A DNA stretch of 36,676 nucleotides from an uncultured Rhodobiaceae bacterium (GTDB lineage Bacteria; Pseudomonadota; Alphaproteobacteria; Parvibaculales; Parvibaculaceae). The notes below the pieces were generated by a model. It was given only the letters and a program-made list of their open reading frames with translations, was not told where the DNA came from and made no database searches. Both the position numbers and the translations under genes were made by a program. Below are positions 6,839-21,525 of this stretch, piece by piece (positions within the stretch are counted from its first letter, which is position 1; every line of letters begins with the position of its first letter). Location of the stretch: assembly GCA_913057645.1 (NCBI GenBank), contig CAJXOU010000031.1:1-36676 (forward strand), written 5' to 3'.

Positions 6839-7858
6839 ATGGCAGATCCAGCTTCCGCATTGCCTCTCGCGATCAGCATGGGAGATCCGGCCGGCATCGG
6901 GCCGGAGATTACAGTCAAGTCCTGGGCGGAACGGAAGCGCGAGAACCTTGCCGTCTTCTTTGCGGTGGGGAACGCTGACCTATACAGGGAAACGGCGCGA
7001 CTTCTGAAGCTGGATATAGACATCCAGGAGATATCATCGCCCGGTCAAGCCGGGCAGGTGTTTTCCGACGCGATGCCTGTTCTGCCGATTGATCTGGCCG
7101 AACCTGCCGCATCGGGCATTCCTTCACCGGCCAACGCCACCTCGGTACTCGCTTCGATCGACACTGCCTGCGATTTCGCTCTTGATGGCAGTATCGCCGG
7201 CATGGTTACCAACCCAATACACAAACGCACGCTGTATGAGGGCGGACTTCGCGTCCCGGGGCATACCGAGTATCTCGCCGAACGATGCGGCGGTGCCACG
7301 CCTCTCATGATGCTATCCTGCCCGGGACTTCGTGTTGTTCCCGTCACTGTGCACCTCTCGCTCGGCGAAGCGGTGGAGTCTCTCCGTGCGGATGCAATCG
7401 TCGAGCAAGGCCGGATTTTGGCAGAGGCGCTGAAGCGGGATTTTGGCATTGAACGCCCACGGATCGCAGTCGCCGCACTCAACCCCCATGCGGGCGAGGA
7501 AGGGCATCTGGGTCGCGAGGAAATCGAGGTTATCGCGCCTGCCGTTGAAGCTCTGAGAGACTTGTGCCCGGATGCAAGATTCACAGGGCCAAGCCCGGCA
7601 GACACACTCTTTCACGCGGCGGCACGCTCCCGCTATGACGCCGTGCTCTGCATGTATCACGATCAGGCGTTGATCCCCTTGAAGACGATCGACTTCGAGA
7701 ATGGTGTCAACACCACGCTGGGCCTTCCGATCATTCGTAGTTCACCAGACCATGGCACCGCTTTCGACATAGCTGGCAAAGGGATTGCCCATCCCGGCAG
7801 CCTCATTGCCGCAATACGCACCGCGAGCGAAATATCCTATCACCGGGCGAACGCATGA
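6839..7858 (+). CDS. pdxA: 4-hydroxythreonine-4-phosphate dehydrogenase PdxA
   Basis: This enzyme oxidises 4-phosphohydroxy-L-threonine with NAD+ in the DXP-dependent route to pyridoxal phosphate. The frame reads 339 residues from the ATG at 6839; a TTG at 6821 adds six residues and is the alternative. Family motifs visible are [11 protein letters not shown] (residues 13-23), NPIHK (125-129), the metal-binding His142 in PGHTEYLAE, and [10 protein letters not shown] (271-280) with His274. The downstream rsmA start overlaps the stop in an ATGA. The surA-pdxA-rsmA order is also known from gammaproteobacteria. Confidence 0.95.
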
Positions 7859-8706
7859 CGGCGCATCCATCCGGGCTTCCGCCTTTGCGCGAGGTGATCG
7901 CCAAGCATGGTCTTGCCGCCCAGAAATCACTCGGCCAGAATTTTCTACTCGATCTCAATCTTACCGGCCGAATTGCCCGCGCTGCCGGACAACTCGATGG
8001 GCACGACGTTCTTGAAGTGGGTCCGGGGCCAGGCGGCCTGACGCGTGCCTTGCTGGCGTCGGGTGCCCGCCGTGTAGTTGCGATCGAACGCGACCGCCGG
8101 TGCATTGCGGCGCTTCAGGAGATCGCCCTGGCCTACCCGGACAGACTCGTCATTGTTGAGGGTGACGCCCTCGTAACCGACATGCGAGCGCTGGTAAGCA
8201 CTCCGGCCCGTATTGTGGCAAACCTGCCCTACAATATCGCAACCCCGCTTCTTGTGGGATGGATGCAGACGGAACCTTGGCCTCCCTGGTTTGAAAGCCT
8301 GACCCTCATGTTTCAACGGGAGGTCGCCCAAAGGATTACGGCACGGCCGGGCACGAAGGCTTATGGCCGCCTGTCCGTGCTCACCCAATGGCGAACAAAG
8401 CCGCGTATTCTGTTCGACGTGGACCGCAGAGCATTCACTCCTCCCCCCTCCGTCACTTCATCGGTCGTTGAGCTCATACCCCGTGACAAGCCACTGGCAG
8501 AGGCCAATCCCGCCGCGCTCGAGCGAGTCGTCGCCGCAGCGTTCGGGCAGCGGCGCAAGATGCTGAGGGCGAGTCTGAAGACATTGGGGAGAGGCAATCC
8601 CGCCGCCCTTCTGGAAACAGCCGCCATCGCCCCTACCCGGCGAGCGGAAGAATTGACGGTCGAAGAATTTTGTTCGCTTGCCCGGGCCTTCGCAGATCGT
8701 ATGTGA
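7855..8706 (+). CDS. rsmA: 16S rRNA (adenine(1518)-N6/adenine(1519)-N6)-dimethyltransferase RsmA (KsgA)
   Basis: This 283-residue SAM-dependent enzyme dimethylates two adjacent adenines in the 3'-terminal hairpin of 16S rRNA during late 30S assembly. Motifs in order: SLGQNFLLD (25-33), the SAM-binding [12 protein letters not shown] (52-63), the acidic ribose-binding AIERD (76-80), and the catalytic NLPYNI (123-128). The C-terminal helical domain contains FGQRRKMLR. Its ATG overlaps the pdxA stop (ATGA), implying coupled translation. It is the last gene of the conserved lptF-rsmA run; in many relatives the next gene is a convergent gmk, which here lies about 12 kb away. Confidence 0.96.
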
Positions 8707-8805
8707 TCTCCATTTGCGAGGTTGTTAGGGACGGCGCTGCATGCCACATTGGCGTCGAAATCGGCGGTCCCAAGCCGAAAACATCACGTCCCGGAGGCAG
8801 GTTTC

Positions 8806-9855
8806 ATGAAGTCCGAAGCGATCGTCGAATACGGTGCCCCCTTGCAGCTCGTCGATAGCGACACGCCGCAGCCTCAGGGTACCGAAGTGCTCCTCAAGGT
8901 CACTCATTGTGGCGTCTGCCATTCCGACGTTCACATTCATGACGGCTATTTCGATATGGGCGGCGGCAACAAACTGGACGTCCGCGCCGGACGGAAGCTG
9001 CCATTTACGCTCGGTCACGAAATCGAGGGTGAGGTGATCGCCACGGGCCCCGACGCCGGTGAAATTGAAATCGGAACCCAACGGGTGGCCTATCCATGGA
9101 TTGGCTGCGGCGAATGTCCCACCTGCAATCGCGGCGACGAACATCTGTGTAACAAGCCACGTGCGTTGGGTATTCAGGTGGCGGGCGGATACGCGACCCA
9201 CGTGCTGGTACCCCATCCTCGCTACCTGCTGGACTACAGTGGCGTCGCGGAGGGCTTGGCTGCGACCTATATGTGCTCTGGCCTCACCGCTTACAGCGCG
9301 ATGAAGAAGCTTGGCGATATCAGCGCCGAAGAACGCGTGATGGTGGTAGGCCTCGGCGGCGTCGGCATGATGGGCCTGCAGTTCGCGAAGGCTCTCTTTC
9401 CTTCGGCGCCTCTCGGTGCCGATGTCGATGAAAACAAACTTCAGTCCGCTCGGGGCGCCGGGGCCCACGAGGTCTACAACCCGAAAGACGCCGAAGCGAT
9501 CAAGAAGGTTCTCGCCGATACGAATGGCGGCGTGCCCGCCGCGGTCGATTTCGTCGGCTCCGAAGCCTCTCTCAAGTTCGCATCAAGCGTCGTACGGAAG
9601 GGTGGGAAGGTCATCGTGGTCGGGCTATTTGGCGGCGGCTTCTCGATGCCGATTCCGTTGTTCCCGATGCGCGCCATCTCCATCGGTGGTTCTTATGTCG
9701 GCTCTCTCGACGAGACGAAGGAGATGATGGAATTGGTGAAAGCAGGAAAGATCGACCCTATCCCGGTCAGCGAACGTCCGCTTGGTGAGGGCTCGAAGTC
9801 GCTCGACGACCTCCGCAATGGGTCAGTGATGGGGCGGGTGGTACTGAAACCGTGA
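8806..9855 (+). CDS. Zinc-dependent alcohol dehydrogenase (MDR superfamily)
   Basis: This 349-residue NAD(P)-dependent medium-chain dehydrogenase starts at an ATG behind a GGAGG-type site; the longer frame from 8722 adds a non-homologous leader. Catalytic zinc ligands are Cys38 (HCGVCHSD), His71 (GHE) and Cys157. The structural zinc site is C101/C104/C107/C115 in GCGECPTCNRGDEHLC. The cofactor loop GLGGVG is at residues 182-187, with an acidic Asp in GADVDENK favouring NAD+ over NADP+. The substrate cannot be read from sequence; this subgroup is usually annotated as an alcohol or aldehyde dehydrogenase. It stands alone, 99 bases after rsmA and convergent with the sulfotransferase, and may mark the edge of the core block. 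Confidence 0.9.
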   Translation: MKSEAIVEYGAPLQLVDSDTPQPQGTEVLLKVTHCGVCHSDVHIHDGYFDMGGGNKLDVRAGRKLPFTLGHEIEGEVIATGPDAGEIEIGTQRVAYPWIGCGECPTCNRGDEHLCNKPRALGIQVAGGYATHVLVPHPRYLLDYSGVAEGLAATYMCSGLTAYSAMKKLGDISAEERVMVVGLGGVGMMGLQFAKALFPSAPLGADVDENKLQSARGAGAHEVYNPKDAEAIKKVLADTNGGVPAAVDFVGSEASLKFASSVVRKGGKVIVVGLFGGGFSMPIPLFPMRAISIGGSYVGSLDETKEMMELVKAGKIDPIPVSERPLGEGSKSLDDLRNGSVMGRVVLKP

Positions 9856-9950
9856 TATCGTCGATTTTTCGATCTGGCGGATCGCAATAGGATGTACGCT
9901 CGATGTGGTTGCACGAAGACGGCACTTTCAATGCGTGTGTCCTGCCAAGC

Positions 9951-10781
9951 CTAAGGAAGATTGCTCAGTCTCCTGAAATGTTCGTAGACGATCAAATCGG
10001 CTTCAACCAGCGGCCTGGCGAGATCCCTCATTTCGTCATCGAATGAGCGCATCGCTTCGCTCCTTTTTTCAGCCGATCTCACGAACGATGCCGTAACGTT
10101 CATTTTTCTGCCCGCAGGGGGCTGAGGCAGACCCGCAATGTCTGCAACTTCCAAAAAGGCTGAGTCGAAGTTGTCGTTGAATCCAATCAGGTCGACCGTC
10201 GACAGGTTATGAATCGCCGCCTCTGCGAGGCTCAATCTTTCCTCTCTAGATTTCGGGATGTATCCCAGAGAACCCGCAAACTGCCGCGCGACGAAATTGT
10301 CCGCCCCGGAGACCACGACGGGGTGCCTGGAGACGAGGAATTCCTTCAAGGACATCGTCTTTACGAGCCTGACGTCGTTATCATCTCTGACGCTCGGCGG
10401 CAGATGAGCCACATACTGATAAAGCGACCGCAATCGATCGTATGGGTCTCTCAGGAAAGTCAGGGAATAGGTGGATTCGTCCCTGAAACTCTCGAAAGCT
10501 GTCCATGGCATATGACCGGTAACGAACCTTGCCTTGCGTGCCTGCTCCGCGAACACATTCAACGGCAGTTGTGAAAAGTCGTCATAGAATACAATTCGTC
10601 CACTGCGCTTCGACCCGACATATTCCTTAAAATAGCTGTTGATCGACGTTCCGCCTGTCTTCGGCGTATGGATGAAGGCGATGCGTGGAGGGCGCTCTCC
10701 GGTCGTGACCGCTTTCCGGGCACATGACAGTCTGTATCCGGCGCGGCGGAGCGTTTTTCTCGTTTGCCTTAACAGTCCCAT
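9951..10781 (-). CDS. Sulfotransferase family protein
   Basis: This 276-residue protein has the two PAPS-binding signatures of sulfotransferases: the 5'-phosphosulfate loop TPKTGGTS (residues 39-46) and a 3'-phosphate-binding segment RDPYDRLRSLY (111-121). The FIHTPKTGGTS context is that of the Sulfotransfer_2-like bacterial carbohydrate sulfotransferases. It would transfer sulfate from PAPS to a hydroxyl of a sugar or similar acceptor in the cytoplasm. The first 30 residues are basic, with no signal peptide. The start ATG at 10781 has only a weak upstream site. It is divergent from the glycan operon across a 161-base region with tandem operator-like repeats, suggesting co-regulation. No PAPS synthesis genes are present in the window. 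Confidence 0.8.
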   Translation of the reverse strand: MGLLRQTRKTLRRAGYRLSCARKAVTTGERPPRIAFIHTPKTGGTSINSYFKEYVGSKRSGRIVFYDDFSQLPLNVFAEQARKARFVTGHMPWTAFESFRDESTYSLTFLRDPYDRLRSLYQYVAHLPPSVRDDNDVRLVKTMSLKEFLVSRHPVVVSGADNFVARQFAGSLGYIPKSREERLSLAEAAIHNLSTVDLIGFNDNFDSAFLEVADIAGLPQPPAGRKMNVTASFVRSAEKRSEAMRSFDDEMRDLARPLVEADLIVYEHFRRLSNLP

Positions 10782-10805
10782 ATTTTAACCGCGTTCACCT
10801 CAGCC

Positions 10806-10843
10806 TCGAATCCGTAGTCAGTACATCCTGAATCCGTATTCAG
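10806..10843. promoter_or_regulatory. Tandem operator-like repeats between sulfotransferase and glycan operon
   Basis: Two related 16-base boxes, TCGAATCCGTAGTCAG (10806-10821) and CTGAATCCGTATTCAG (10828-10843), lie 22 bases apart start to start, about two helical turns, so a dimeric regulator could sit on one face. The second box is a perfect palindrome (CTGAAT and ATTCAG around CCGT); the first is a degenerate copy. They lie in the divergent intergenic region, upstream of a TATACT (10876-10881) that could serve as a -10 for the aminotransferase gene. The cognate regulator is not in the window. Confidence 0.45.
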
Positions 10844-10942
10844 CGCGCTCTGTTTTTGCTAGTAATAGGTCCTTGTATACTCCGGCCGCGCCGACATAAC
10901 AAAGGTCGGCTGGCTGCAACCTTGCGAGCGAGCGGACAAATC

Positions 10943-12085
10943 GTGATTCGAGCAAATGCCCCTATTCCTGTGGCGGGTCCGTGGATCACCGAACGGGAAA
11001 TCGAGTATGTCACGGAAGCCGCCCGAACCGCCTGGTTCAAGGATCACTACACCTTCAACGCCCGCTTTGAGAAGGCATTTGCCGAATATGTGGGCGTGAA
11101 GCATGCCGTTTCCCTGCCTCATTGCACCGCCGCTATTCATCTTTCCCTTGCAGCCGGCGGCATTGGTCCCGGAGACGAAGTAATTGTTCCAGACGTTACC
11201 TGGATCGCCTCGGTCGCTCCTGTCGTCTATGTCGGAGCGACACCGATATTCGCCGACATAAAGAAAGATACATGGTGCATTGATCCCTCCTCGGTCGAAG
11301 CCGCAATCACGGACCGAACGAGGGCTATCATAGGTGTCGATCTGTACGGATCGATGGCGGATTGGGTCGAACTGCGGCGTATTGCCGACCAATACGATCT
11401 TCTCCTTGTCGAAGACTCGGCTGAAGCACTCGGATCAGAGTATGCCGGGCAGAAGGCTGGTGCGCTCGGCGATACCGGCGTCTTTTCCTTCCATGGATCG
11501 AAAACCGTAACCACCGGTGAAGGAGGAATGCTGGTCACCGACGATAATCACCTTCACCAGCGCGTCATGACACTTCGTGATCACGGACGCCCGCCTGGCG
11601 ACAAGCTCTTTCTCAACACGGAGATTGGCTTCAAGTACAAGATGAGCGCGCTTCAGGCAGCGTTCGGTCTTGCACAAATCGAACGAGTGGACGAGCTTAT
11701 TTCCCGGAAGCGAGAGATATTCCGTTGGTACAAAGATGAACTCGAGACCGTTGACGGCGTCACCCTCAATGCCGAGCCTCAAGGCACGCGAAACTCGTAC
11801 TGGATGATCACAATCATCCTCGACCCGCGGATCGGCATGGATAAATTTTCTTTGATGGATGCCCTTGGCAAAAGAAACATCGACACGAGACCGTTTTTCT
11901 CACCTCTGTCTACCTTGCCAGCGTTTTCAGACTACCCCCACTCTTCAGCCCACATGCCCGAAAACCCCGTCGGCACCGAGATTTCCAAATACGGCGTTAA
12001 TCTTCCTTCAGGCTATCACGTGGACAGGGAGACAGTCGAAATCGTGACCGGCGCCCTGAAGGAAATACTGGCTGAAGCAAGATGA
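10943..12085 (+). CDS. DegT/DnrJ/EryC1/StrS-family sugar aminotransferase
   Basis: This PLP-dependent aminotransferase family converts nucleotide-linked keto-sugars to amino sugars. I take the GTG at 10943, giving 380 residues that begin VIRANAPIPVAGPWIT, like family members; a TTG at 10856 would add 29 residues of unlikely leader. Visible motifs are the N-terminal substrate loop (TFNARFEKAFAEYVG), VDLYG, the PLP-contacting EDSAEALGS, and the Schiff-base lysine in FHGSKTVTTGEGG (Lys187). It leads the lower-GC glycan module; the next gene is 82 bases on. The amino-sugar product is not predictable. A glutamine:scyllo-inosose-type role is less likely but possible. Confidence 0.88.
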   Translation: MIRANAPIPVAGPWITEREIEYVTEAARTAWFKDHYTFNARFEKAFAEYVGVKHAVSLPHCTAAIHLSLAAGGIGPGDEVIVPDVTWIASVAPVVYVGATPIFADIKKDTWCIDPSSVEAAITDRTRAIIGVDLYGSMADWVELRRIADQYDLLLVEDSAEALGSEYAGQKAGALGDTGVFSFHGSKTVTTGEGGMLVTDDNHLHQRVMTLRDHGRPPGDKLFLNTEIGFKYKMSALQAAFGLAQIERVDELISRKREIFRWYKDELETVDGVTLNAEPQGTRNSYWMITIILDPRIGMDKFSLMDALGKRNIDTRPFFSPLSTLPAFSDYPHSSAHMPENPVGTEISKYGVNLPSGYHVDRETVEIVTGALKEILAEAR

Positions 12086-12167
12086 TCCGCTTTTTGACCA
12101 CGCCCCCTTCGCTAGCCACTCCGGACAAGAAAATAGTGCACCGGGTAGCCTCCTCGGCGACAAGACA

Positions 12168-13202
12168 ATGAACAGATCTGACTCATTTTTATCGGTGATG
12201 ATCGCAGGTGTAGGCGGTGCATCTCTTGGCACCGAGATTAGCAAGTGCCTGGCGTTGGCCGGGGGGTACAAGATATTCGGCTGCGATGTATCCCCTACTG
12301 CCTATGGCCTTTATGACAAACACTTCTCTGCAACATTTCGAGTAGATCGCAACAATTACATCGAGAGCGTAACCGCCGCCTGTTCACAGGCTGGAGCCGA
12401 ATGGCTCGTCGCGGGTGGCGAGCAACCCATGGCGCTGCTGAGCAGCGCCTCAACTCAACTCGCAAAACACGGCATCCACCTTGTCGCAAATACTCCTGAC
12501 ATCGTTCAAGCGTTTTCCGACAAGGCAATGACATTCGAAAGACTCTCCCATGCCGGAATTGCAGTTCCCCGTACCATGATCATATTGGGCGAGCTTGATA
12601 TCTTGGCTGTCGGCCTACCATGTATCGTGAAGCCGGCGACGGGGTCGGGAGGGAGCGTCTCTGTTTTCTTTGCCATCACGAGTGACGAGGCGATGATATA
12701 CGCCGATTTCATTCGCCGTAGCGGAAACGTGCCTATCGCTCAGGAATATATTCCGGAGGATGAGGGAGAGTTCACGATCGGCGTCCTGTCCCTGCCGAAT
12801 GGCAGTATCGCCGGTTCGATTGCACTCAAACGCGCACTGGATGCCAAGCTATCTGTGTCATATCGCGGCCGGGGCGGTCTTGTATCGAGTGGCTATTCCC
12901 AAGGCCACATTGATGATTATGCCTTTCTTCGTTCACAAGCGGAACATATTGCAGAAACGATTGGCAGCCGCGGTCCCATCAATATTCAAGGTCGCGTAAA
13001 GAACGGGGTCCTGATCCCATTCGAAATCAATCCGCGCTTCTCTGCCTCGACCTACCTGCGCGCTCTCGCGGGTTTCAACGAGATCGACCTCCTGCTCCGA
13101 TTCATGGCGTTCGAGGAAAAGCCTGGCCCGATGTCAATCACGCCGGGCTGGTACCTTCGGAGCCTGACCGAAACATACGTACCGGATAGTCAAATCAAAT
13201 GA
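12168..13202 (+). CDS. ATP-grasp domain protein (carbamoyl-phosphate-synthase-like)
   Basis: This 344-residue protein has an N-terminal pre-ATP-grasp Rossmann-like domain (VMIAGVGGASLG at 10-21) and an ATP-grasp fold. The glycine-rich phosphate loop is IVKPATGSGGS (153-163), the substrate or ATP contact is QEYIPEDEGEFTIGV (192-206), and the metal-binding strand EINPRFSAS is at 286-294. Such enzymes ligate a carboxylate to an amine, amide or other nucleophile through an acyl-phosphate. In glycan clusters they are proposed to attach amino acids or other groups to amino sugars, which fits the preceding aminotransferase, but the substrate is an inference. Its ATGA overlaps the next gene's start, suggesting the two products work together. 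Confidence 0.85.
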   Translation: MNRSDSFLSVMIAGVGGASLGTEISKCLALAGGYKIFGCDVSPTAYGLYDKHFSATFRVDRNNYIESVTAACSQAGAEWLVAGGEQPMALLSSASTQLAKHGIHLVANTPDIVQAFSDKAMTFERLSHAGIAVPRTMIILGELDILAVGLPCIVKPATGSGGSVSVFFAITSDEAMIYADFIRRSGNVPIAQEYIPEDEGEFTIGVLSLPNGSIAGSIALKRALDAKLSVSYRGRGGLVSSGYSQGHIDDYAFLRSQAEHIAETIGSRGPINIQGRVKNGVLIPFEINPRFSASTYLRALAGFNEIDLLLRFMAFEEKPGPMSITPGWYLRSLTETYVPDSQIK

Positions 13203-14458
13203 CGGTCCGCTGGATCACGCCTCTACTCGGCACAACATCGGCATCTCAAGTCGGATCCACCTCCGACATGACCGTGATCGACGTGCGCGAGCTCGTGGAC
13301 CGTGCCGGCAACGCAGCGAACACATTGCGCGACAAGATTGCCGCTGGCTCGGCCTCGTTGCGCGACGGCCGCAAGACGGTCATTTGTTGCGATCATGGAA
13401 TCTCGCGGAGCAATGCGGTCGCTGCGGGTGTTCTCTCGCAGGCGGAAGGGATTTCATTCGAAGCCGCAATCAGAAGAGTCATTGCGGCAACGGGTGAAAG
13501 CGAAATGCGTCCGGAAGTCGTCGAAGCGGTTCGCCGATCGCTTTCCTCATCGGCGGCTGCAGACTTTCCGACATTTGAGCGGGAACGATGGTTGCTCACG
13601 GGAGGAAGCGGCGCTCTTGGCGGTGTCATAGCAGCGACTACTCCTGACAACATCGAAATACTCTCTCCAAGCAGAGAGGAACTCGATCTCCTGCGGGGAG
13701 CCGTACCGTTGGGACTCTACACGGGAGAGGCCGGCGTCTCGCGCATTCTCCATTTTGCGGCCCCCCGTATCGGCAATACCAACACTGCGGTCGGCGAAGC
13801 ATTGACCATGTTTCGCAACGTTCTCGAAGTTGCATCTATTCAGCAATTGCCGGTCGTCATTCCGTCGCGATGGGAAGTCTTCGGTGGCTATCGGGGCGAA
13901 ACGATGGAAGCTACTGAAGAGACGCCGTCCCGTCCCGCAGGCGCCCTTGGAGACGCCAAGTATCTATTGGAAGCCCTGGCTCTCGCCTGGGCCGCTCAAC
14001 GGCAGGCTAACGTCACAATTCTGCGAAGCGGACTTGTCTTTGGCAACGGTATCGCCCCCAACTTCATGCGTGCGTTTGTCCGCAAAGCTTGCTCCGGCGA
14101 AACGATCACCACTCATGTTTACGACAACGGCGAGCCGCTGCTCGACCTGATGGCGGCGGCGGATTGGACTTCTGCATTCTGGGCTCTGGTCAGGTCAGGA
14201 GAAACTGGTCTTTTTCACGCCGGCGGAGGCGCCCTAACCGGCACCCGAGAGATCGCAGAGATGGCTGCGGCCAGCTCCGGCCAGGGGTGCCAAATCGCGG
14301 AACTTCATGTAGAAGGCAAGGCAGCCAACGTCAGACTGGACTTCGGCAAGCTGGAAAAGGCGGTCGGCTGGCGGCCTTCCCGGCCAGCAGTCGATCTTCT
14401 AGCCGATTTTCTGGGTCAGGCGTGCGGAGATCGGACATACACTGAGAAGGATCGGTGA
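13199..14458 (+). CDS. Fusion of phosphatase-like (CX5R) domain and NAD-dependent epimerase/SDR-like domain
   Basis: This 419-residue protein joins two domains. Residues about 1-120 resemble dual-specificity phosphatases: the signature CDHGISRS (Cys64, Arg70) fits the CX5R loop, preceded by VIC at the end of a strand and followed by an alpha-helix. Residues about 128-410 form an extended SDR, with the nucleotide loop TGGSGALG (134-141), HFAAP (185-189) and SRWEVFGG (223-230) in the place of the usual SSxxVYG. In the catalytic YxxxK the lysine is present (Lys254), but Leu250 replaces the tyrosine. The SDR half may therefore not catalyse normal oxidoreduction or epimerisation. The start overlaps the ATP-grasp stop, and the stop overlaps the methyltransferase start (TGATG). 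Its function is unknown. Confidence 0.7.
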   Translation: MTVRWITPLLGTTSASQVGSTSDMTVIDVRELVDRAGNAANTLRDKIAAGSASLRDGRKTVICCDHGISRSNAVAAGVLSQAEGISFEAAIRRVIAATGESEMRPEVVEAVRRSLSSSAAADFPTFERERWLLTGGSGALGGVIAATTPDNIEILSPSREELDLLRGAVPLGLYTGEAGVSRILHFAAPRIGNTNTAVGEALTMFRNVLEVASIQQLPVVIPSRWEVFGGYRGETMEATEETPSRPAGALGDAKYLLEALALAWAAQRQANVTILRSGLVFGNGIAPNFMRAFVRKACSGETITTHVYDNGEPLLDLMAAADWTSAFWALVRSGETGLFHAGGGALTGTREIAEMAAASSGQGCQIAELHVEGKAANVRLDFGKLEKAVGWRPSRPAVDLLADFLGQACGDRTYTEKDR

Positions 14459-15243
14459 TGAATACCGAAGAGAAAGCACGGCAAGAAACGTTTATGTGGT
14501 CCCGAACCACATTCCACAGCGAATACAATCGCTATCTTGCGCAGTTTAAAGTCGAGTCGTGTCTGGAAAACATTCGAGGTACGTCACTACTCGACCTCGC
14601 TTGCGGCGATGGTTTGATGACCCAGATGTTCGCTCAACGGATGCCCCGCGTCGTTGGCGTCGATGCAAACGGGAAAATTCTCGCTGAAGCGAAGAAACGA
14701 CTGCCCGACGTAGAGTTTCACGAAAGCCTGGTTGAAGATCTCGATATCAATGAGAAGTTTGACACCGTCACCATGCTCGACTTGCTCGAGCATGTGGTCG
14801 ACCCAATTGCCCTGCTTAAGAAAGCAGCCAGTTTCCTTAATGACGATGGCGTTCTGATTATCCACGTCCCGAACGCGCAGGCTATCAACAGGCGTCTCGC
14901 TGTGCTGATGGGTACGCTGGAAAGCTGCGAGGAACTCTCCCCTTTCGATATTCAGGTCGCAGGTCATAGACGCTCCTATTCACTCCCGACGTTGACGAAA
15001 GATATCGAGGCCGCAGGACTGAAATGCGCGTCGACCGGTGGAATCTTCTACAAAATTCTTTCCACGCCTCAAATGGACTGGTTCCTGAAAAACGGTCTCT
15101 GGGACGAAGGCGGCTTCGGCTGGGGGCGAGTCGGCGCCGAAGGCACGCGTGACTGGAAAGAAGCTTTCTGCCGTGCATCCTTCGAGCTTGGAAAACAGCA
15201 TCCAGAAGACTGCAACATCATCTACGCTTGCGTAACGCGGTAG
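14458..15243 (+). CDS. Class I SAM-dependent methyltransferase
   Basis: This 261-residue protein starts at the ATG in TGATG, sharing one base with the previous stop, behind an AAGGA site. Motif I is LLDLACGDG (44-52), followed by VVGVDAN (65-71) with the acidic ribose-binding residue. The segment LDLLEHVVDP (near residue 105) and the post-II LIIHVPN are typical of Methyltransf_11/23-like enzymes acting on small molecules, including sugars. Its position inside a sugar-modification operon suggests O- or N-methylation of the glycan or its precursor. The acceptor cannot be read from sequence. Confidence 0.85.
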   Translation: MNTEEKARQETFMWSRTTFHSEYNRYLAQFKVESCLENIRGTSLLDLACGDGLMTQMFAQRMPRVVGVDANGKILAEAKKRLPDVEFHESLVEDLDINEKFDTVTMLDLLEHVVDPIALLKKAASFLNDDGVLIIHVPNAQAINRRLAVLMGTLESCEELSPFDIQVAGHRRSYSLPTLTKDIEAAGLKCASTGGIFYKILSTPQMDWFLKNGLWDEGGFGWGRVGAEGTRDWKEAFCRASFELGKQHPEDCNIIYACVTR

Positions 15244-15287
15244 CCCGATATTTCGGGAGAGCCATTCAACTTGAAAAGCGATTGACA

Positions 15288-16037
15288 ATGGATCCGGTCG
15301 AGTCATTCCGTAAGCAAGTCAACGAGAATATCAAGCGCCTCGGCGACGACAAGGAAGTGCAAAATCTGTCGCGCGTCTGGTCGAGAGAAACCAACCGAAA
15401 CGGCTATACCTACAACTTTTCGTGGCTGGGGCGGCCGATAATTCAATATCCGCAAGATATTGTGGCGATGCAGGAAATCATCTGGTCGACGCAACCGGAC
15501 TTGATCGTGGAGACCGGGATTGCCCACGGCGGCTCCCTGATTTTTTCTGCCTCGATGCTGGAGCTCAATGCGGCATGCGGCGGAAAGAAGGATGCACGCG
15601 TCCTGGGTATCGACATCGACATTCGCTCTCACAATCGCGAAGCGATAGAAGCGCACCCGCTTGCCCGCCGCATCGACATGATTCAAGGGTCAAGTGTATC
15701 GGACGATGTGACGGCCAGAGTGAAAGAGGCAGCGCGCGGCAAGGAAAGCGTGCTGGTCATTCTCGACTCCAACCATACGCACGAACACGTCCTCGCGGAA
15801 CTTGAGGCTTACGCCCCGCTCGTCACTTTGGGTAGTTACTGCCTCGTATACGATACACTGATCGAAGACATGCCGGCGGAACTCTTTCCGGATCGCCCAT
15901 GGGGGCCCGGTGACAATCCGAAAACCGCGGTATGGGAGTACCTCAAGTCGCACCCTGAATTCGAAATCGATGAATCCATTCCCAACAAGCTTCTGATAAC
16001 AGTCGGACCTGACGGATATCTCAAGCGCATCAGTTGA
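15288..16037 (+). CDS. CmcI-like (cephalosporin hydroxylase family) putative methyltransferase
   Basis: This 249-residue protein has the CmcI fold pattern: the N-terminal SWLGRPIIQYPQD, the SAM-binding ETGIAHGGS (75-83), VLGIDIDIRSHN (105-116), and LDSNHTHEHV (159-168), whose acidic and histidine residues are the family's metal-binding region. Despite the name from antibiotic biosynthesis, many members in glycan loci are SAM-dependent O-methyltransferases for sugars. The start is the ATG at 15288; a TTG at 15228 lies inside the preceding gene. Only five bases separate its stop from the GT2 gene. Confidence 0.82.
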   Translation: MDPVESFRKQVNENIKRLGDDKEVQNLSRVWSRETNRNGYTYNFSWLGRPIIQYPQDIVAMQEIIWSTQPDLIVETGIAHGGSLIFSASMLELNAACGGKKDARVLGIDIDIRSHNREAIEAHPLARRIDMIQGSSVSDDVTARVKEAARGKESVLVILDSNHTHEHVLAELEAYAPLVTLGSYCLVYDTLIEDMPAELFPDRPWGPGDNPKTAVWEYLKSHPEFEIDESIPNKLLITVGPDGYLKRIS

Positions 16038-16041
16038 TCAG

Positions 16042-17211
16042 ATGACGAGCCGTTCGGGTGCACCCAAAATCACTGTCATCATTCCCACTCGAGAGCGCTG
16101 CGATGTCTTTACTTCGGCGCTCCGTACTGTTGTGGCGCAAGACTACGACAACCTAGAAATTCTCGTCAGCGACAACTTCAGCACAGATGACACGCACGAA
16201 ATCGTGGAGTGCATCGCTGATCCGCGAGTCCGGTACCTGAACACCGGGAAGCGCCTGAGCATGTCGGGCAACTGGGAATTTGCACTTTCGCATGTTACGG
16301 GCGATTGGGTCACCATCATTGGCGACGACGACGGTTTGCTACCTGATGCGTTGAACCGTGCCTCTGAATTCATTCGAGAGATGGACGTCCTCGCCTTCCA
16401 GTCGACCATATGCCGGTACCGCTGGCCCGGAAACAAGGGGCGACAATACGGTCGCATTCGAGTTCCGCTGACGCGCGGCGAAGAGGTGCGGCTCAGCAGA
16501 ACCTGGATGAATCGTGTTCTCCAGGGCCAGGTTGTCTATGCAGAGTTGCCAATGCTCTATACGGGCGGCTTTGCAGACATGAGGGTCCTGGCCGATCTAA
16601 AGAGACGAATGGGTGCATTCTACAACTCTTGCGTTCCCGACGTTTATTCCGGCTTTGCCATCGCCTCTTTGCTTCCGCGGTATGGATTTTCACGTTCTCC
16701 CCTTGCGATTGCGGGTATTTCCAAACACAGCATCGGCGTGGACCATTTCCGGAAGCAGGAAAAAATAGAAACCTCGCCGTCGCAGAAGTTTGCAGCGGAA
16801 GAAAATATTCCCTTTCACAAAGATATTCCCCTGATGGACGACGGTGGTTATCCGCCTTCGCTTCAAGTAACTGCGCTGGAAGCCTATCTGCAGAGCGCTC
16901 CGCTACGGAACGACCATCCTGCCGCGCTCTTCGATCAGCAACTTGAAGTGATACTTTCTGCGACAGATGCAGATGACTGCAATATTACCAGTTGGGCTCG
17001 CAAATTTGCCGCGATGCACGACCTTGACTACGAGCACGCCCGCAACAAATCGCGGAGGAGGCGCCTGCTACGGAAATTCGAGGAACTGCCCGTCAATTTC
17101 ACTCGCCGGATAAAGCGCCGCACTTTAGGTTCGCCAACGCAGCCTCTCGAGAACGTCTATGAAGCAAGCCTCGCAGCAGATGCATTGCTCCGAAAAAAAG
17201 CACTGCGCTAG
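16042..17211 (+). CDS. Family 2 glycosyltransferase
   Basis: This 389-residue cytoplasmic enzyme has a GT-A fold N-terminus: ITVIIPTRERCDVF (10-23), the nucleotide-binding LVSDNFSTDDT (41-51), and the metal-binding acidic run GDDD (94-97). It probably transfers a nucleotide-activated sugar made by this cluster to a growing glycan. The C-terminal 200 residues are not family-conserved and lack membrane segments; the end is basic (RRRRLLRKFEEL). It closes the plus-strand module, and its TAG stop is interleaved with the stop of the convergent C-methyltransferase gene in the tetramer CTAG (17208-17211). Confidence 0.87.
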   Translation: MTSRSGAPKITVIIPTRERCDVFTSALRTVVAQDYDNLEILVSDNFSTDDTHEIVECIADPRVRYLNTGKRLSMSGNWEFALSHVTGDWVTIIGDDDGLLPDALNRASEFIREMDVLAFQSTICRYRWPGNKGRQYGRIRVPLTRGEEVRLSRTWMNRVLQGQVVYAELPMLYTGGFADMRVLADLKRRMGAFYNSCVPDVYSGFAIASLLPRYGFSRSPLAIAGISKHSIGVDHFRKQEKIETSPSQKFAAEENIPFHKDIPLMDDGGYPPSLQVTALEAYLQSAPLRNDHPAALFDQQLEVILSATDADDCNITSWARKFAAMHDLDYEHARNKSRRRRLLRKFEELPVNFTRRIKRRTLGSPTQPLENVYEASLAADALLRKKALR

Positions 17212-18437
17212 CTCGACACCGCCAGTTCCGGCACAGCCGTCACAAAACGCGCACCCCGCCCGCTCGCACCGGACAACTGCTTCATCACCTCTTCCTTGAT
17301 ATTCCAGGGCAGAATAATGATGAGATCCGGCCGATCCGCTTCCATATGCGTTTCAGCGACGATGGGAATCCGGCTGCCTGGCATGAACTTGCCCTGTTTC
17401 GCGGCGGCCCGGTCGACGACGTAAGGGATGAGATCGGGGCGAATACCGGCAAAATTCATGAGAGTGTTGCCCTTGGCAGCTGCGCCATAAGCGCCCACCT
17501 TCAAGCCCTTGCGCCTTGCGTCGATCAGGAAAGCAAGGAAATCATTCTTCACATTCTCCGCACGTGCCTGAAACCCCGAATAAAACTCGGCATTCTCAAC
17601 GCCTGCCGTTGCTTCCGTATTCAGCATCTCGGCTAACCGTTCGGTGCGTTCGCGCCTGCCCGTTTCGGCTTTCTGCGCAAACACCCGCAGACTTCCGCCA
17701 TGCGTCGGTAGCTCCTCGACATCGAATACACCGAGTCCGTTCGCCGCAAAGATGCGCGCAACCGAGGTCAGCGAAAGGTACGAGTAGTGCTCGTGATAAA
17801 TCGTATCGAACTGGTTCTCCGCGACGAGCTTCAGAAGATGCGGAAACTCGAACGTCGCAACACCATCTGGTTTCAACAAGGCAGCGAAACCTGAAACGAA
17901 ATCATTGATATCCGGGACATGCGCAAGCACGTTGTTTGCAACCGTCAAATCCGCCTGTCGCCCTTCCGCCACAAGTTCGAGAGCCAGTTCGACACCGAAG
18001 AATCTTTCCTCGATCTCGATTCCCTTCTCACGCGCCGCCGCCGCCGTGCTCGCCGTCGGCTCGATCCCATAGCAAGGAATGCCCGCCGCCATCACATATT
18101 GCAGGAGATAGCCGTCGTTGGCTGCAACTTCGACGACCATGCTTTCTGGTCCGAGTCCAAAGCGTCCGGTCATTCGTTCGACATAGGACTTCGAATGGGA
18201 AAGCCAGCTCGCAGACGTCGAACTGAAATACGCATAGTCGTCGGCGAACAGTTCTTCGCGCCCGGCATGATCTTCGGTCTGTACCAGCCAGCAGGTTTCG
18301 CAAACGAGCACTCTCAGCGGGTACCACGTTTCAGGCGCAGTCAACATCTCCGGAGTCAGATAGGCATTCGAAGGTGGCGCCGATCCCAGGTCGACAAAAA
18401 CGAGATTCAACGGCGATCCACAATGGCGGCACTTCAC
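17208..18437 (-). CDS. Sugar C-methyltransferase (TylC3-like, class I SAM)
   Basis: This 409-residue protein has the three-part architecture of NDP-hexose 3-C-methyltransferases. First is a zinc-binding N-terminus with C3/C6 (CRHC) and C46/C49 (CETC). Next is a SAM domain with VVEVAANDGYL (101-111) and the active-site stretch YHEHYSYLS (214-222). Last is a C-terminal Rossmann-like domain with GAYGAAAKGNTLMN. It would methylate carbon 3 of a 4-keto-6-deoxyhexose nucleotide, matching the CDP-4-keto-6-deoxyglucose made by rfbF and rfbG upstream. The start is GTG at 18437, in a GTGA overlap with the stop of the rfbC-like gene, so translation is coupled. Confidence 0.88.
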   Translation of the reverse strand: MKCRHCGSPLNLVFVDLGSAPPSNAYLTPEMLTAPETWYPLRVLVCETCWLVQTEDHAGREELFADDYAYFSSTSASWLSHSKSYVERMTGRFGLGPESMVVEVAANDGYLLQYVMAAGIPCYGIEPTASTAAAAREKGIEIEERFFGVELALELVAEGRQADLTVANNVLAHVPDINDFVSGFAALLKPDGVATFEFPHLLKLVAENQFDTIYHEHYSYLSLTSVARIFAANGLGVFDVEELPTHGGSLRVFAQKAETGRRERTERLAEMLNTEATAGVENAEFYSGFQARAENVKNDFLAFLIDARRKGLKVGAYGAAAKGNTLMNFAGIRPDLIPYVVDRAAAKQGKFMPGSRIPIVAETHMEADRPDLIIILPWNIKEEVMKQLSGASGRGARFVTAVPELAVSS

Positions 18438-18997
18438 GTCTTGCTTCCTTCCTGCAACGACTTGAGATTGGGGAAATTCGCGTCCCGCTCCGACCTTTCC
18501 ACAATCTCCAGCGGCCAGTCTATTCGCAGTGCCGGGTCGTCGGCCCGCACGCCGCCTTCCGCCTCCGGGGCATACGCAGCCGAGTGGGCATAGAACATTT
18601 CCACATCGTCCGTAAGCGTCTGGAAACCATGTGCAAATCCAGGGGGAATCAGAAGGCTTGACGCATTGTCGTTCGACAGGCGTTCACCGTACCAGCGGCC
18701 ATAGGTTGGCGAGCCCGGGCGGAGGTCCACAGCGACGTCGAAGACCTCCCCCCGCAGGCATGTCACGAGCTTCGCCTCTTCGTGAGGCGGATGCTGGAAG
18801 TGCATGCCGCGAATGGTGCCCCTCTTCGCAGTCAGCGTCCGGTTCAACTGCGCGATCGGCCAAATCCAGCCCGCGGCTTCCAGTTCCTCAGAACAGAACA
18901 GTCTCTCGAGCCAGCCTCGCTCGTCACCCATTCGCTTGCGGCGGACAACGGAAAGTCCTTCTAGCGGCGTTCCCTTGATATCAAACCGGCCGCTCAC
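18434..18997 (-). CDS. rfbC: dTDP-4-dehydrorhamnose 3,5-epimerase-like protein (RmlC family)
   Basis: This 187-residue cupin starts at a GTG in a GTGA overlap with the rfbG stop; the longer frame to 19111 lies within rfbG. RmlC-family features are RKRMGDERGWLERLF, the catalytic-histidine strand TIRGMHFQHPPHEEAKLV (His66), VFDVAVDLRPGSPTYG, and IPPGFAHGFQTL. Because its neighbours make a CDP-linked rather than a dTDP-linked 4-keto-6-deoxyhexose, it more likely epimerises carbon 3 and/or 5 of the CDP sugar, so the usual dTDP-rhamnose name may mislead. The symbol follows family naming only. Confidence 0.85.
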   Translation of the reverse strand: MSGRFDIKGTPLEGLSVVRRKRMGDERGWLERLFCSEELEAAGWIWPIAQLNRTLTAKRGTIRGMHFQHPPHEEAKLVTCLRGEVFDVAVDLRPGSPTYGRWYGERLSNDNASSLLIPPGFAHGFQTLTDDVEMFYAHSAAYAPEAEGGVRADDPALRIDWPLEIVERSERDANFPNLKSLQEGSKT

Positions 18998-20076
18998 GCC
19001 GTCGTTCCCATGTGAAGGGTCTCGAAGAGCTCGATTTGCGCCAGCGTCTTTTCGCGCATATCCGCCCCGGCGTTCAGCGCGCGATACCAATCCGACAGCC
19101 AGGAAACACACCGGTCTCCCGCGAGACGATCATGCCAGCCAAGACATTCGCGTGCCTTCGTGCTGTCAATACTGAGCGCCATCATCTCGAGCGGGCCGGG
19201 ATCGTTCGCCGGCTTCCAGCCTGCCCCCCCGAGTGCTGCCTGCACGGCTTCCGCGAGCTCGGCGACCGTTATGGCAGGCGCATCGGACGCGGGGCCGAAG
19301 TTCAGAGCTGCCGGAACGGCCGCTCCCTCCGCAAGGCCGCGGGCAAAAGTGAAATACCCGCACAAGCAATCAAGCACGTGTTGCCACGGCCGCGCGGCCT
19401 GCGGATTGCGTAGCATCAGTGGCTCGCCTGCCCTGAGCGCCCGCCAGATGTCGGGGACAAGGCGATCTTCGGAGAAATCACCGCCGCCGATCACATTGCC
19501 ACCGCGCGCCGTCGCGACGCGCACGCCTTGTTCTTCGAGAAAGGATCGCGCGTAGGACGAGGTCACGATTTCCGCCGCTGCCTTGGAAGCCGCATAGGGG
19601 TCGTGCCCACCCAGAGCGTCGTCCTCGCGGAAAGCAGCGCCAGTTTCGTCATTCTCGTAAACCTTGTCGGTCGTAACGACCAGAACAGTCTGGAGCCCCT
19701 CTCTGCCGCGCAGGGCGTCCAGCAGCCTCGCCGTACCCATCACGTTGACGTCGAACGTACCGATCGGATCCGCGTAGGAGCGTCGCACGAGAGGATGTGC
19801 CGCCATGTGGATCACGATTTGAGGATCTGCTTCGGCGACGGCCTGCCTCAAGGCTTCTTCATCGCGCAAATCGCCTGTAATCGAACGCACGACGCTTTCC
19901 ACCGCGGCAAGGGAAAAGAGATTGGGTTCCGTATCCGGCGCAAGCGCATAGCCCGTTACATCCGCGCCGAGCCGCGAAAGCCAGAGCGAAGCCCACGACC
20001 CCTTGAAGCCCGTATGCCCCGTCAGGAGAACGCGCTTGCCGTTCCAGAATTCCCTGTCGAGGCCGTCCAGCCGCAA
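18994..20076 (-). CDS. rfbG: CDP-glucose 4,6-dehydratase
   Basis: This extended SDR converts CDP-glucose to CDP-4-keto-6-deoxyglucose. The TTG at 20076 follows a GGAAGG site and gives 360 residues, the family length, beginning RLDGLDREFWNGKRVLLTGHTGF in shifted form; the frame can be extended to 20121, but only inside rfbF. The NAD loop TGHTGFKG (19-26), TTDKVY (135-140) and the catalytic YAASK (Tyr161, Lys165) are all intact, and RPWQHVLDCLCGY is characteristic of RfbG. It lies two bases after the rfbF stop. Confidence 0.93.
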   Translation of the reverse strand: MRLDGLDREFWNGKRVLLTGHTGFKGSWASLWLSRLGADVTGYALAPDTEPNLFSLAAVESVVRSITGDLRDEEALRQAVAEADPQIVIHMAAHPLVRRSYADPIGTFDVNVMGTARLLDALRGREGLQTVLVVTTDKVYENDETGAAFREDDALGGHDPYAASKAAAEIVTSSYARSFLEEQGVRVATARGGNVIGGGDFSEDRLVPDIWRALRAGEPLMLRNPQAARPWQHVLDCLCGYFTFARGLAEGAAVPAALNFGPASDAPAITVAELAEAVQAALGGAGWKPANDPGPLEMMALSIDSTKARECLGWHDRLAGDRCVSWLSDWYRALNAGADMREKTLAQIELFETLHMGTTA

Positions 20077-20078
20077 GA

Positions 20079-20858
20079 TCAGTCCTTCCAGGTCTTCCAG
20101 GGCGCATCTCCACGCGCCCACAGGTCTTCCAGGTGGTTCTTGTCGCGCAGCGTATCCATGGGCTGCCAGAATCCGGTGTGAGGAAAGCTCATCAGTTCGC
20201 CATCACCTGCAAGCTTCATCAACGGCTCGCCTTCGAACGAACTCCGGTCGCCCTCGATCCGGTCAAGCACGGACGGTTCGAGCGCGAAGAATCCTCCATT
20301 GATCCAGGCGTTGTCGCCCGGCGGTTTTTCAATGAAGCAGGCCACCGTGTCACCGCTGAGCTCCAGAGCGCCGTAACGTCCGGGGGGCACCACCCTGGTC
20401 AAGGTGGCCTCCTTGCCATGCTTCTTGTGGAACGCAAGAAGAGCATTGATGTCGACATCGGCGACTCCGTCGCCATAGGTCATGAAAAAGGTTTCACCAG
20501 GATCGAGATAATCCTTCACACGCTTTACGCGCCCGCCTGTAAGTGTGTCGGCGCCGGTATCGACCAGGGTCACACGCCAGGGCTCGCTCGCCTTCTGGTG
20601 AAAGATGACCTCTCCCGTTGCCGCGTCGATCGTCACGTCCGACGAATGCAGCACATAGTTCGCAAAATATTCCTTGATCATGTAGCCGCGATAGCCGAGG
20701 CAGATCACGAAGTCCGTGTGCCCGAACTGTGTGTAGATTTTCATGATGTGCCAGAGGATCGGACGGCCGCCGACCTCGATCATCGGCTTGGGCCGCAGCT
20801 GACTTTCCTCGGATATTCGTGTCCCGAGACCCCCAGCCAGTATCACTACCTTCGTCAT
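20079..20858 (-). CDS. rfbF: Glucose-1-phosphate cytidylyltransferase
   Basis: This 259-residue nucleotidyltransferase makes CDP-glucose from CTP and glucose-1-phosphate. It shows the family's LAGGLGTRISEES loop (8-20) with RPKPM, the metal-binding MTYGDGVADVD, and INGGFFALEP and FWQPMDT near the C-terminus. The ATG follows a GGGGGA site. It starts only 16 bases after the gmk stop on the same strand, so the CDP-sugar genes are probably transcribed by read-through from yicC-gmk unless a promoter lies within gmk. The operon order rfbF-rfbG-rfbC-like-C-methyltransferase recurs in O-antigen loci. Confidence 0.95.
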   Translation of the reverse strand: MTKVVILAGGLGTRISEESQLRPKPMIEVGGRPILWHIMKIYTQFGHTDFVICLGYRGYMIKEYFANYVLHSSDVTIDAATGEVIFHQKASEPWRVTLVDTGADTLTGGRVKRVKDYLDPGETFFMTYGDGVADVDINALLAFHKKHGKEATLTRVVPPGRYGALELSGDTVACFIEKPPGDNAWINGGFFALEPSVLDRIEGDRSSFEGEPLMKLAGDGELMSFPHTGFWQPMDTLRDKNHLEDLWARGDAPWKTWKD

Positions 20859-20874
20859 TCGTGTTCCCCCGGCC

Positions 20875-21525
20875 TCACAATGCTTCGCGAAGCTGCTTCA
20901 CGAAATTCGACAGGCCTGTCAGCCGGCGCCGCCGAAGCCGCTCCGCTCGAAGTATCGCCTGCAGTTCGGCAAAGGCCTTGTCCATGCTCTCGTTGATGAT
21001 GATGTAGTCGTACTCCTGATAGTGACTAATCTCATCAGATGCCTTCGCCATGCGCGCCGCCACGACGTCTGCCGGATCCTGTGCGCGTTTCTCAAGGCGG
21101 CGTTCCAGTTCCTGTACGGAAGGAGGCAGGATGAATACCTTTACCAGGTCTTCGGGCGCTGTTTCATCCAGCTGCTGCGTTCCCTGCCAGTCGATATCAA
21201 AGAGAACGTCATGGCCTTGCGCCAACGCTTCTTCGACCGGTTTGCGTGGCGTCCCGTAATAATTGTCGAAAACCTTTGCGCTTTCGAGGAAGTCGCCCTT
21301 GTTGCGCATGATGCCGAAGTCTTCCGTGGTCAGGAAGAAATAGTCTTTTCCTTCCACCTCGCCCGGTCTCGGCTTGCGTGTGGTAGCCGATACGGACATG
21401 TCGATCTCGCGGTCGCTTTCGAGAAGGCGGCGCGAAAGCGTCGTCTTGCCCGCGCCGGAGGGCGAGGACAGCACGAGCATCAGACCACGGCGATGTATGG
21501 CGATCCCCGTCATTTCCCCGATCAC
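20875..21525 (-). CDS. gmk: Guanylate kinase
   Basis: This enzyme phosphorylates GMP to GDP, an essential step for GTP, dGTP and (p)ppGpp pools. The P-loop SSPSGAGKTT is at residues 20-29, followed by SVSATTRKPRPGE and the GMP-binding YFFL and FLESAKVFDNYYGTP. The GTG at 21525 overlaps the yicC stop (GTGA), a junction style used repeatedly here; the ATG at 21513, four codons in, is the alternative start. About 216 residues is normal length. In many alphaproteobacteria gmk faces rsmA; here the glycan island separates them. Confidence 0.94.
   Translation of the reverse strand: MIGEMTGIAIHRRGLMLVLSSPSGAGKTTLSRRLLESDREIDMSVSATTRKPRPGEVEGKDYFFLTTEDFGIMRNKGDFLESAKVFDNYYGTPRKPVEEALAQGHDVLFDIDWQGTQQLDETAPEDLVKVFILPPSVQELERRLEKRAQDPADVVAARMAKASDEISHYQEYDYIIINESMDKAFAELQAILRAERLRRRRLTGLSNFVKQLREAL

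Follow-up and report, generated by a model that had tools for sequence, protein, structure and literature searches.

A dual-specificity-phosphatase-like domain fused to a short-chain dehydrogenase/reductase without its catalytic tyrosine, in a glycan cluster with an ATP-grasp ligase

Synthesis of surface glycans can pair an ATP-grasp ligase with a phosphatase. In Campylobacter jejuni, the ATP-grasp domain of Cj1438 (Cj1438C) joins (S)-serinol-P or ethanolamine-P to glucuronic acid in an amide bond, after which Cj1435 hydrolyses the phosphate (PMC11800379). Here we describe a gene that joins two known kinds of protein, the dual-specificity phosphatase/protein tyrosine phosphatase (DSP/PTP) fold and the extended short-chain dehydrogenase/reductase (SDR), next to an ATP-grasp ligase gene. 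The fusion gene lies on contig CAJXOU010000031.1 (GenBank assembly GCA_913057645.1) of an uncultured Rhodobiaceae bacterium, in a stretch of 36,676 nucleotides that is called the window and was examined left of about 22.4 kb. Its parts are given below in window positions.

13199..14458, + strand: DSP-SDR fusion gene, 419 amino acids (aa), open reading frame (ORF)
13199..13552, + strand: N-terminal DSP/PTP-fold domain, residues 1-118 (DSPc profile, PDB profile, structure model)
13298..13300, + strand: Asp34, candidate general acid, 30 residues before Cys64, aligned with an Asp of 2hcm
13388..13411, + strand: phosphatase P-loop C64-D-H-G-I-S-R70-S71 (sequence and five-member alignment)
13586..14455, + strand: extended SDR half, residues ~130-419 (PF01370, MoeE5 alignment, structure match)
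13598..13621, + strand: dinucleotide loop TGGSGALG, residues 134-141 (TGGSGxxG in all five members)
13868..13870, + strand: Arg224 at the usual catalytic Ser/Thr position, three before V227 (alignments)
13946..13948, + strand: Leu250 (CTT) at the catalytic Tyr position (alignments)
13958..13960, + strand: Lys254 (AAG) of the YxxxK motif, kept (alignments)

An earlier note on this DNA had proposed a phosphatase-like domain fused to a Tyr-less SDR at 13199-14458, and both the ORF and its residues confirm the proposal. The note had also claimed translational coupling on both sides, which is visible in the gene overlaps. The ATG of the fusion is overlapped by the ATP-grasp stop codon (13200-13202) in an ATGA at 13199-13202, a 4-bp overlap, and the TGA stop of the fusion (14456-14458) overlaps the methyltransferase start, either GTG at 14455 or ATG at 14458. 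Five members make up the fusion family: the window protein plus four relatives with 59-85% identity. In their alignment C64, R70, R224, L250 and K254 are invariant in all five, which excludes a sequencing error or chance as the origin of these residues. Loss of the active-site Cys and Arg among relatives had been named beforehand as one observation that would count against a phosphatase, and these two residues are among the invariant ones.

The sequence evidence for a DSP fold in the N-terminal half is weak but consistent. The Pfam DSPc model gives the window protein 17.3 bits (E 0.0045), below the gathering cut-off of 33.5, and it matches all five members at an E limit of 1, the best of them at E 0.00058. 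PDB profile searches matched this half to ShufPTP (E 3.4e-4) and to the mouse DSP 2hcm (E 7.1e-4). A separate structure model of residues 1-124, made from a three-sequence alignment (predicted local distance difference test, pLDDT, 74.2; predicted template modelling score, pTM, 0.72), settles the fold as far as prediction can. It aligns with human DUSP28 over 118 residues (Z 11.4, root-mean-square deviation 3.2), and its top Foldseek match is 9e9l (E 5.9e-4). The DSP-like fold that had been proposed for the N-terminus is thereby borne out by the model. The profile searches suggested at the time gave a divided result: PF01370 exceeds its cut-off on the SDR half, and DSPc falls below the Pfam cut-off for the window protein. 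In the P-loop, Cys64 is preceded by Cys63, where His is usual.

The conserved residues bear on whether this half is an enzyme. Both halves might be non-catalytic, with a P-loop that only binds phosphate and a protein that acts as a scaffold for the ATP-grasp ligase and the methyltransferase. In favour of this, pseudophosphatases exist among eukaryotic DSPs, two catalytic positions of the SDR half are lost, and Cys63 replaces the usual His. However, Cys64, Arg70, Ser71, Asp28 and Asp34 are all invariant in the five members, and the other occupants of this slot come from phosphoesterase families, and we consider a scaffold improbable. It is more improbable still that the DSP half is a protein phosphatase regulating polysaccharide assembly. 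The DSP fold would suit that role, and the best structural matches are mostly protein phosphatases, but the domain is fused to a metabolic-type SDR and its gene overlaps a ligase gene, related loci have a metallophosphoesterase or PHP neighbour, and no protein-kinase family occurs in the Pfam matches of the 20 ORFs scanned in the window left of about 22.4 kb.

The C-terminal half is an extended SDR by profile, with a PF01370 score of 47.2 bits against a cut-off of 20.9 (E 2.5e-12). The full-length structure model is poor (pLDDT 50.1) and served for the SDR fold only; its SDR part matches SDRs with Z up to 11.9. The Tyr and Ser/Thr columns were placed by alignment to MoeE5 and to 17 unfused SDRs. 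The Tyr column holds Leu250 in 5/5 fused members as opposed to Tyr in 17/17 unfused SDRs. The Ser/Thr column holds Arg224 in 5/5 fused members, and Ser/Thr (13/17) or Gly (4/17) in the unfused ones. Lys254 and the TGGSGxxG loop are kept in all five. An SDR without its catalytic Tyr and with nucleotide loop and Lys intact had been predicted, and Leu250, TGGSGALG and Lys254 are what is seen; Arg224 in place of Ser/Thr is a second catalytic loss that goes beyond that prediction. Judged by its residues, the fused protein lacks the Tyr and Ser/Thr features of active SDRs. With both residues lost, this half is unlikely to be a classical oxidoreductase and probably serves as a binding or non-canonical module. 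The SDR tree leaves the origin of the fused SDR unplaced, with a stem of 3.17 and weak joins only.

The SDR half is constrained, though less than the neighbouring genes. The closest pair of members gives ratios of nonsynonymous to synonymous divergence (omega) of 0.12 (DSP half), 0.19 (SDR half), 0.10 (ATP-grasp ligase) and 0.02 (methyltransferase). Omega of the SDR half lies at 0.13-0.19 in the five of ten pairs where synonymous divergence (dS) gave a value, the other five giving none; dS exceeds 1.5 in four of the five valued pairs, so that the closest pair alone is unsaturated. These omega values speak against a decaying SDR half.

They also favour an SDR half that has remained an enzyme and works through Lys254 and further residues (Arg224?) as an epimerase, dehydratase or reductase on a CDP-sugar, with the phosphatase fused for channelling. 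The invariant TGGSGxxG loop and Lys254 point the same way, and four fusion-less Parvibaculum clusters (G010, G011, G013 and G023; G and L numbers are our handles for genomes and loci) have a separate SDR with intact YxxxK. A study of eugenol synthase is said to concern an active enzyme without this tyrosine. In PMC1991597, on eugenol synthase, "lacks the catalytic tyrosine" stands beside "short-chain dehydrogenase". Nevertheless, Tyr and Ser/Thr are replaced in every fused member whereas all 17 unfused SDRs keep Tyr, and a 14-kb stretch of G656 with similar pathway genes has no SDR-profile match besides RfbG. An SDR half that still works in this way appears unlikely to us.

The fusion occurs in 5 of 27 genomes of the genus (Parvibaculum-like), the window genome included, and all five loci have the ATP-grasp gene before it and two methyltransferase genes after it. 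The search for the same fusion and its neighbours that the earlier note had suggested thus returned a constant neighbourhood. A scan of genome contigs gave the same two relatives, those of G024 and G016. In 387 genomes of the class and 397 of the phylum, with the best four first-look candidates per genome scored and an E limit of 1e-12 in the phylum search, only the window's own genome gave a full-length match. The wide searches outside the genus otherwise gave SDR-level or other partial matches only, one of them a weak N-terminal match (G165:C1:299-550, locus L057; E 6.5e-4). The fusion was not found in the plasmids, viral contigs and phages searched.

Outside the genus, the ATP-grasp partner recurs with phosphatases of other folds, a result beyond the claims of the earlier note. 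Among 26 such loci that hold a relative of the window ATP-grasp, 14 have a same-strand phosphatase of non-DSP fold beside it. It is a metallophosphoesterase in ten (L049, L050, L051, L083, L085, L086, L087, L088, L093 and L097) and a PHP protein in four (L084, L094, L102 and L103). Measured between profile matches rather than annotated gene ends, phosphatase and ATP-grasp lie at most 6 bp apart in 13 of the 14 loci and overlap in 10; the exception is L050, where the metallophosphoesterase is 884 bp away, across an SDR gene. A class search with the window ATP-grasp alone found a phosphatase beside three of five relatives, a further search found one at 4/4 new loci, and the plasmid records fetched had one in 4/4 (76 records matched the ATP-grasp, 73 of them Sinorhizobium). 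In viral contigs with an ATP-grasp relative, the metallophosphoesterase and PHP profiles found a phosphatase beside it in 0/4. Of the last nine loci, a phosphatase accompanies the top three relatives (E at most 1e-53) and none of the six weaker ones (E about 1e-36 to 1e-42).

These phosphatases were recognised in several ways. Single-protein Pfam scans named six metallophosphoesterases and one PHP protein. Our metallophosphoesterase profile was built from seven of the metallophosphoesterases and newly found those at L051, L093 and L097, and the PHP profile newly found those at L094, L102 and L103. The metallophosphoesterase at L087, scanned against NCBIfam only, matches a phosphodiesterase model there below cut-off, and that at L051 was recognised by our own profile only. 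A HAD protein was considered as a further phosphatase type at L048 and not counted: its gene does not overlap the ATP-grasp gene and lies behind another gene, presumably one for a ribulose-phosphate 3-epimerase.

A Pfam control compared ORFs of at least 180 aa near the ATP-grasp gene (within 1.5 kb) and far from it. Near ORFs include Metallophos in 8/92 and PHP in 4/92. Far from it each reaches at most 2/120, an upper bound set by the 25th of the commonest families listed, which has two members and among which neither family appears. The far set was 120 of 169 ORFs, chosen at random after those of at least 700 aa had been dropped; it holds L085:14-787 with a GNHD/E motif, perhaps itself among the far metallophosphoesterases (two at most). 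The near counts are low because the ORF picker chose the wrong overlapping frame and lost metallophosphoesterases at L051 and L087 and SDRs at L084 and L103. The pooled near scan (8 Metallophos, 4 PHP) equals the count by our own profiles, with L051 and L087 absent from the near list. More than 2.5 kb from the ATP-grasp gene, the metallophosphoesterase and PHP profiles gave no match in the phosphatase loci (192 kb) or in 23 others (293 kb). SDR genes are contiguous in 9 of the 14 phosphatase loci. A general triad of SDR, ATP-grasp and phosphatase was rejected, and the claim was limited to the phosphatase link, because SDRs are about as common farther away (12/120) as near (9/92, with at least two near SDRs missed).

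Phosphatases of another fold also stand within pathway genes like those of the window. Two distant proteobacterial clusters, in G656 and G466, carry the window's CDP-sugar, C-methyltransferase, DegT and CmcI genes. In G656 the pathway genes (RfbF 65%, RfbG 49%, RmlC 49%, the C-methyltransferase CMT14 55%, DegT 49% and CmcI 57% identical to those of the window) surround genes for WbqC, an ATP-grasp protein and a metallophosphoesterase. In G466 the genes from RfbG to DegT are accompanied by those for WbqC, a methyltransferase, a YxxxK-containing SDR, an ATP-grasp protein, a metallophosphoesterase and CmcI (66%). The genes common to all three clusters (RfbG, RmlC, CMT14, DegT and CmcI) show 45-66% identity. 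In the ATP-grasp tree all DSP rows fall into a single clade (97/96), PHP requires two changes, and L050, which has a metallophosphoesterase, groups as the sister of three PHP rows (100/98). Read from this tree, the type of phosphatase has switched.

The DSP half is most likely a real phosphatase for a step in which ATP-grasp ligation is followed by dephosphorylation in surface-glycan synthesis. This follows by analogy, because phosphatases of other folds recur beside the ATP-grasp gene and in similar clusters, and because the pairing fits the logic of Cj1438 and Cj1435. The phosphatase role that had been predicted gains support from this recurrent pairing. The ATP-grasp ligase would join a phosphorylated building block, or make an amide on one. 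The DSP half, as a cysteine phosphatase, would strip the phosphate from the group ligated by, or destined for, the ATP-grasp; its substrate would be a small phosphorylated intermediate of the surface-glycan pathway. The SDR half more probably binds a nucleotide (sugar or NAD) and positions the substrate, or runs a non-classical reaction. Taken as a whole, a working phosphatase after ATP-grasp ligation together with a binding or non-classical SDR module is a reading that we favour with slightly better than even confidence. Its phosphatase part is better supported than its SDR part.

Several observations weigh against it. The DSPc score of the window protein stays under the Pfam cut-off, and Cys instead of His stands before the P-loop Cys. 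The ATP-grasp proteins of G656 and G466 share no more than 24% and 23% identity with that of the window and fall in another part of the tree, and the slot is therefore similar in composition and not strictly orthologous. No metallophosphoesterase, PHP or DSP neighbour is present in 12 of the 26 loci, the nearest outside relative (L089) included. The 26 loci do not count as independent cases, since Rhizobiaceae plasmids account for three of the four PHP loci and G470 supplies two loci. One ATP-grasp query was built exclusively from rows with a phosphatase next to the ligase, and the loci found afterwards are biased accordingly. SDRs show no clear enrichment near the ATP-grasp gene.

A broader proposal is that PRK12767 ATP-grasps define a widespread step, in which a phosphorylated block is ligated and then dephosphorylated by an interchangeable metallophosphoesterase, PHP or DSP protein, to which Parvibaculum has added a pseudo-SDR tether that would grip the nucleotide sugar and bring the phosphorylated group to the active site. 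We hold it tentatively, as something less probable than its opposite. No characterised member of the PRK12767/NF009402 "carbamoyl phosphate synthase-like" ligases was found, and a search of open-licence PMC articles (titles and abstract starts) found neither the fusion nor the ATP-grasp/phosphatase pairing described. Dephosphorylation after ATP-grasp ligation is a candidate function for the phosphatases beside these ligases, and the ligation for the ligases themselves. Unrelated phosphatases appear to substitute for each other in one pathway slot, and an SDR without its usual catalytic residues has been kept under selection after fusion. The ATP-grasp proposal can be tested with defined gene sets.

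The window's glycan cluster sits between ksgA and gmk. The + strand carries, in order, alcohol dehydrogenase, DegT, ATP-grasp, the fusion, a class I methyltransferase, an RMNT_CmcI methyltransferase and GT2; the - strand carries a weak sulfotransferase match, a C-methyltransferase, an RmlC-like epimerase, CDP-glucose 4,6-dehydratase and glucose-1-phosphate cytidylyltransferase.

10856..12085, + strand: DegT/DnrJ/EryC1 sugar aminotransferase (family profiles)
12168..13202, + strand: ATP-grasp ligase, PRK12767/NF009402 (NCBIfam 305.1 bits, cut-off 218)
14455..15243, + strand: class I S-adenosylmethionine methyltransferase (MT1; profile), start overlapping the fusion stop
15228..16037, + strand: RMNT_CmcI family methyltransferase (family profile)
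16042..17211, + strand: GT2 glycosyltransferase (family profile)
17208..18437, - strand: C-methyltransferase, Methyltransf_13/14 (family profiles)
18434..19111, - strand: RmlC-like 3,5-epimerase (family profiles)
18994..20121, - strand: CDP-glucose 4,6-dehydratase (TIGR02622 above cut-off)
20079..20858, - strand: glucose-1-phosphate cytidylyltransferase (TIGR02623 above cut-off)

The pathway is predicted to start from CDP-glucose because the dehydratase and the cytidylyltransferase pass NCBIfam equivalog cut-offs, and with these RfbG and RfbF homologues the glycan context of the earlier note stands. Going by family names, its product would be a 3-C-methylated, 4-aminated sugar. The weak sulfotransferase match (9951-10781, - strand) lies between the alcohol dehydrogenase and DegT genes, and this gene has homologues at 51-57% identity in two fusion-less clusters (L061 and L076).

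The ksgA-gmk interval (window 7855-21525; L058-L077) is a variable glycan locus within the genus. In some genomes (L062, L066, L070, L074) gmk comes straight after alcohol dehydrogenase, and seven fusion-less genomes (L059, L060, L061, L063, L065, L075, L076) have the CDP-sugar core RfbF-RfbG-RmlC-CMT14 with varying decorating genes. The separate SDRs of the four fusion-less Parvibaculum clusters have YDTSK, YDTAK or YDAAK and lie among the decorating genes.

L061:4581-5507: separate SDR
L060:4359-5363: separate SDR
L065:5779-6684: separate SDR
L076:7803-8810: separate SDR

WbqC-like proteins occur in DegT clusters (L086:5062-5823 and L087:3680-4405, named by Pfam) and, recognised by eye, in three fusion-less Parvibaculum clusters (L059:11735-12445, L063:9610-10320 and L075:8414-9220). 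They may be an alternative or a partner to the ATP-grasp protein. The nearest ATP-grasp relative outside the genus, at 48% identity, is on a viral contig (L089:5007-5981) behind a B12-binding/radical SAM gene, and the phosphatase profiles gave no match beside it. On Sinorhizobium/Rhizobium plasmids, PHP, ATP-grasp and SDR genes stand in a row (L084:5276-7943, L103:5240-7914 and L102:5270-7877), and in S. meliloti this row adjoins sulfate-activation genes.

The fusion can thus be set beside four kinds of known system. With the DSP/PTP fold (PF00782; DUSP28, ShufPTP, Tk-PTP) its N-terminal half shares the fold, the CX5RS P-loop and an aligned Asp. It differs in scoring below the Pfam cut-off, in its short length (118 aa), in the Cys for His before the P-loop Cys, and in being fused to an SDR in a bacterial glycan context. 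With extended SDRs of the epimerase-dehydratase kind (PF01370; MoeE5, RmlD) it shares the fold, the TGxxGxxG loop and the Lys, whereas Tyr has become Leu and the Ser/Thr position Arg in 5/5 members. The Campylobacter pair Cj1438C/Cj1435 resembles it in combining ATP-grasp and phosphatase in surface-glycan synthesis, a likeness drawn from gene adjacency; its ATP-grasp is TupA-like, the phosphatase is a separate protein, and there is no SDR fusion (PMC11800379). Cj1435 also has another fold, that of the HAD phosphatases. The fourth comparison is with Sinorhizobium meliloti (CP050561.1), with PHP, ATP-grasp and SDR in a row, and Smac51 (CP026658.1), with metallophosphoesterase and ATP-grasp. Both have an ATP-grasp of the same family with an adjacent phosphatase, and S. 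meliloti also has an adjacent SDR. In contrast to the window, the genes there are separate, the phosphatase folds are unrelated to DSP, and the SDR keeps YxxxK.

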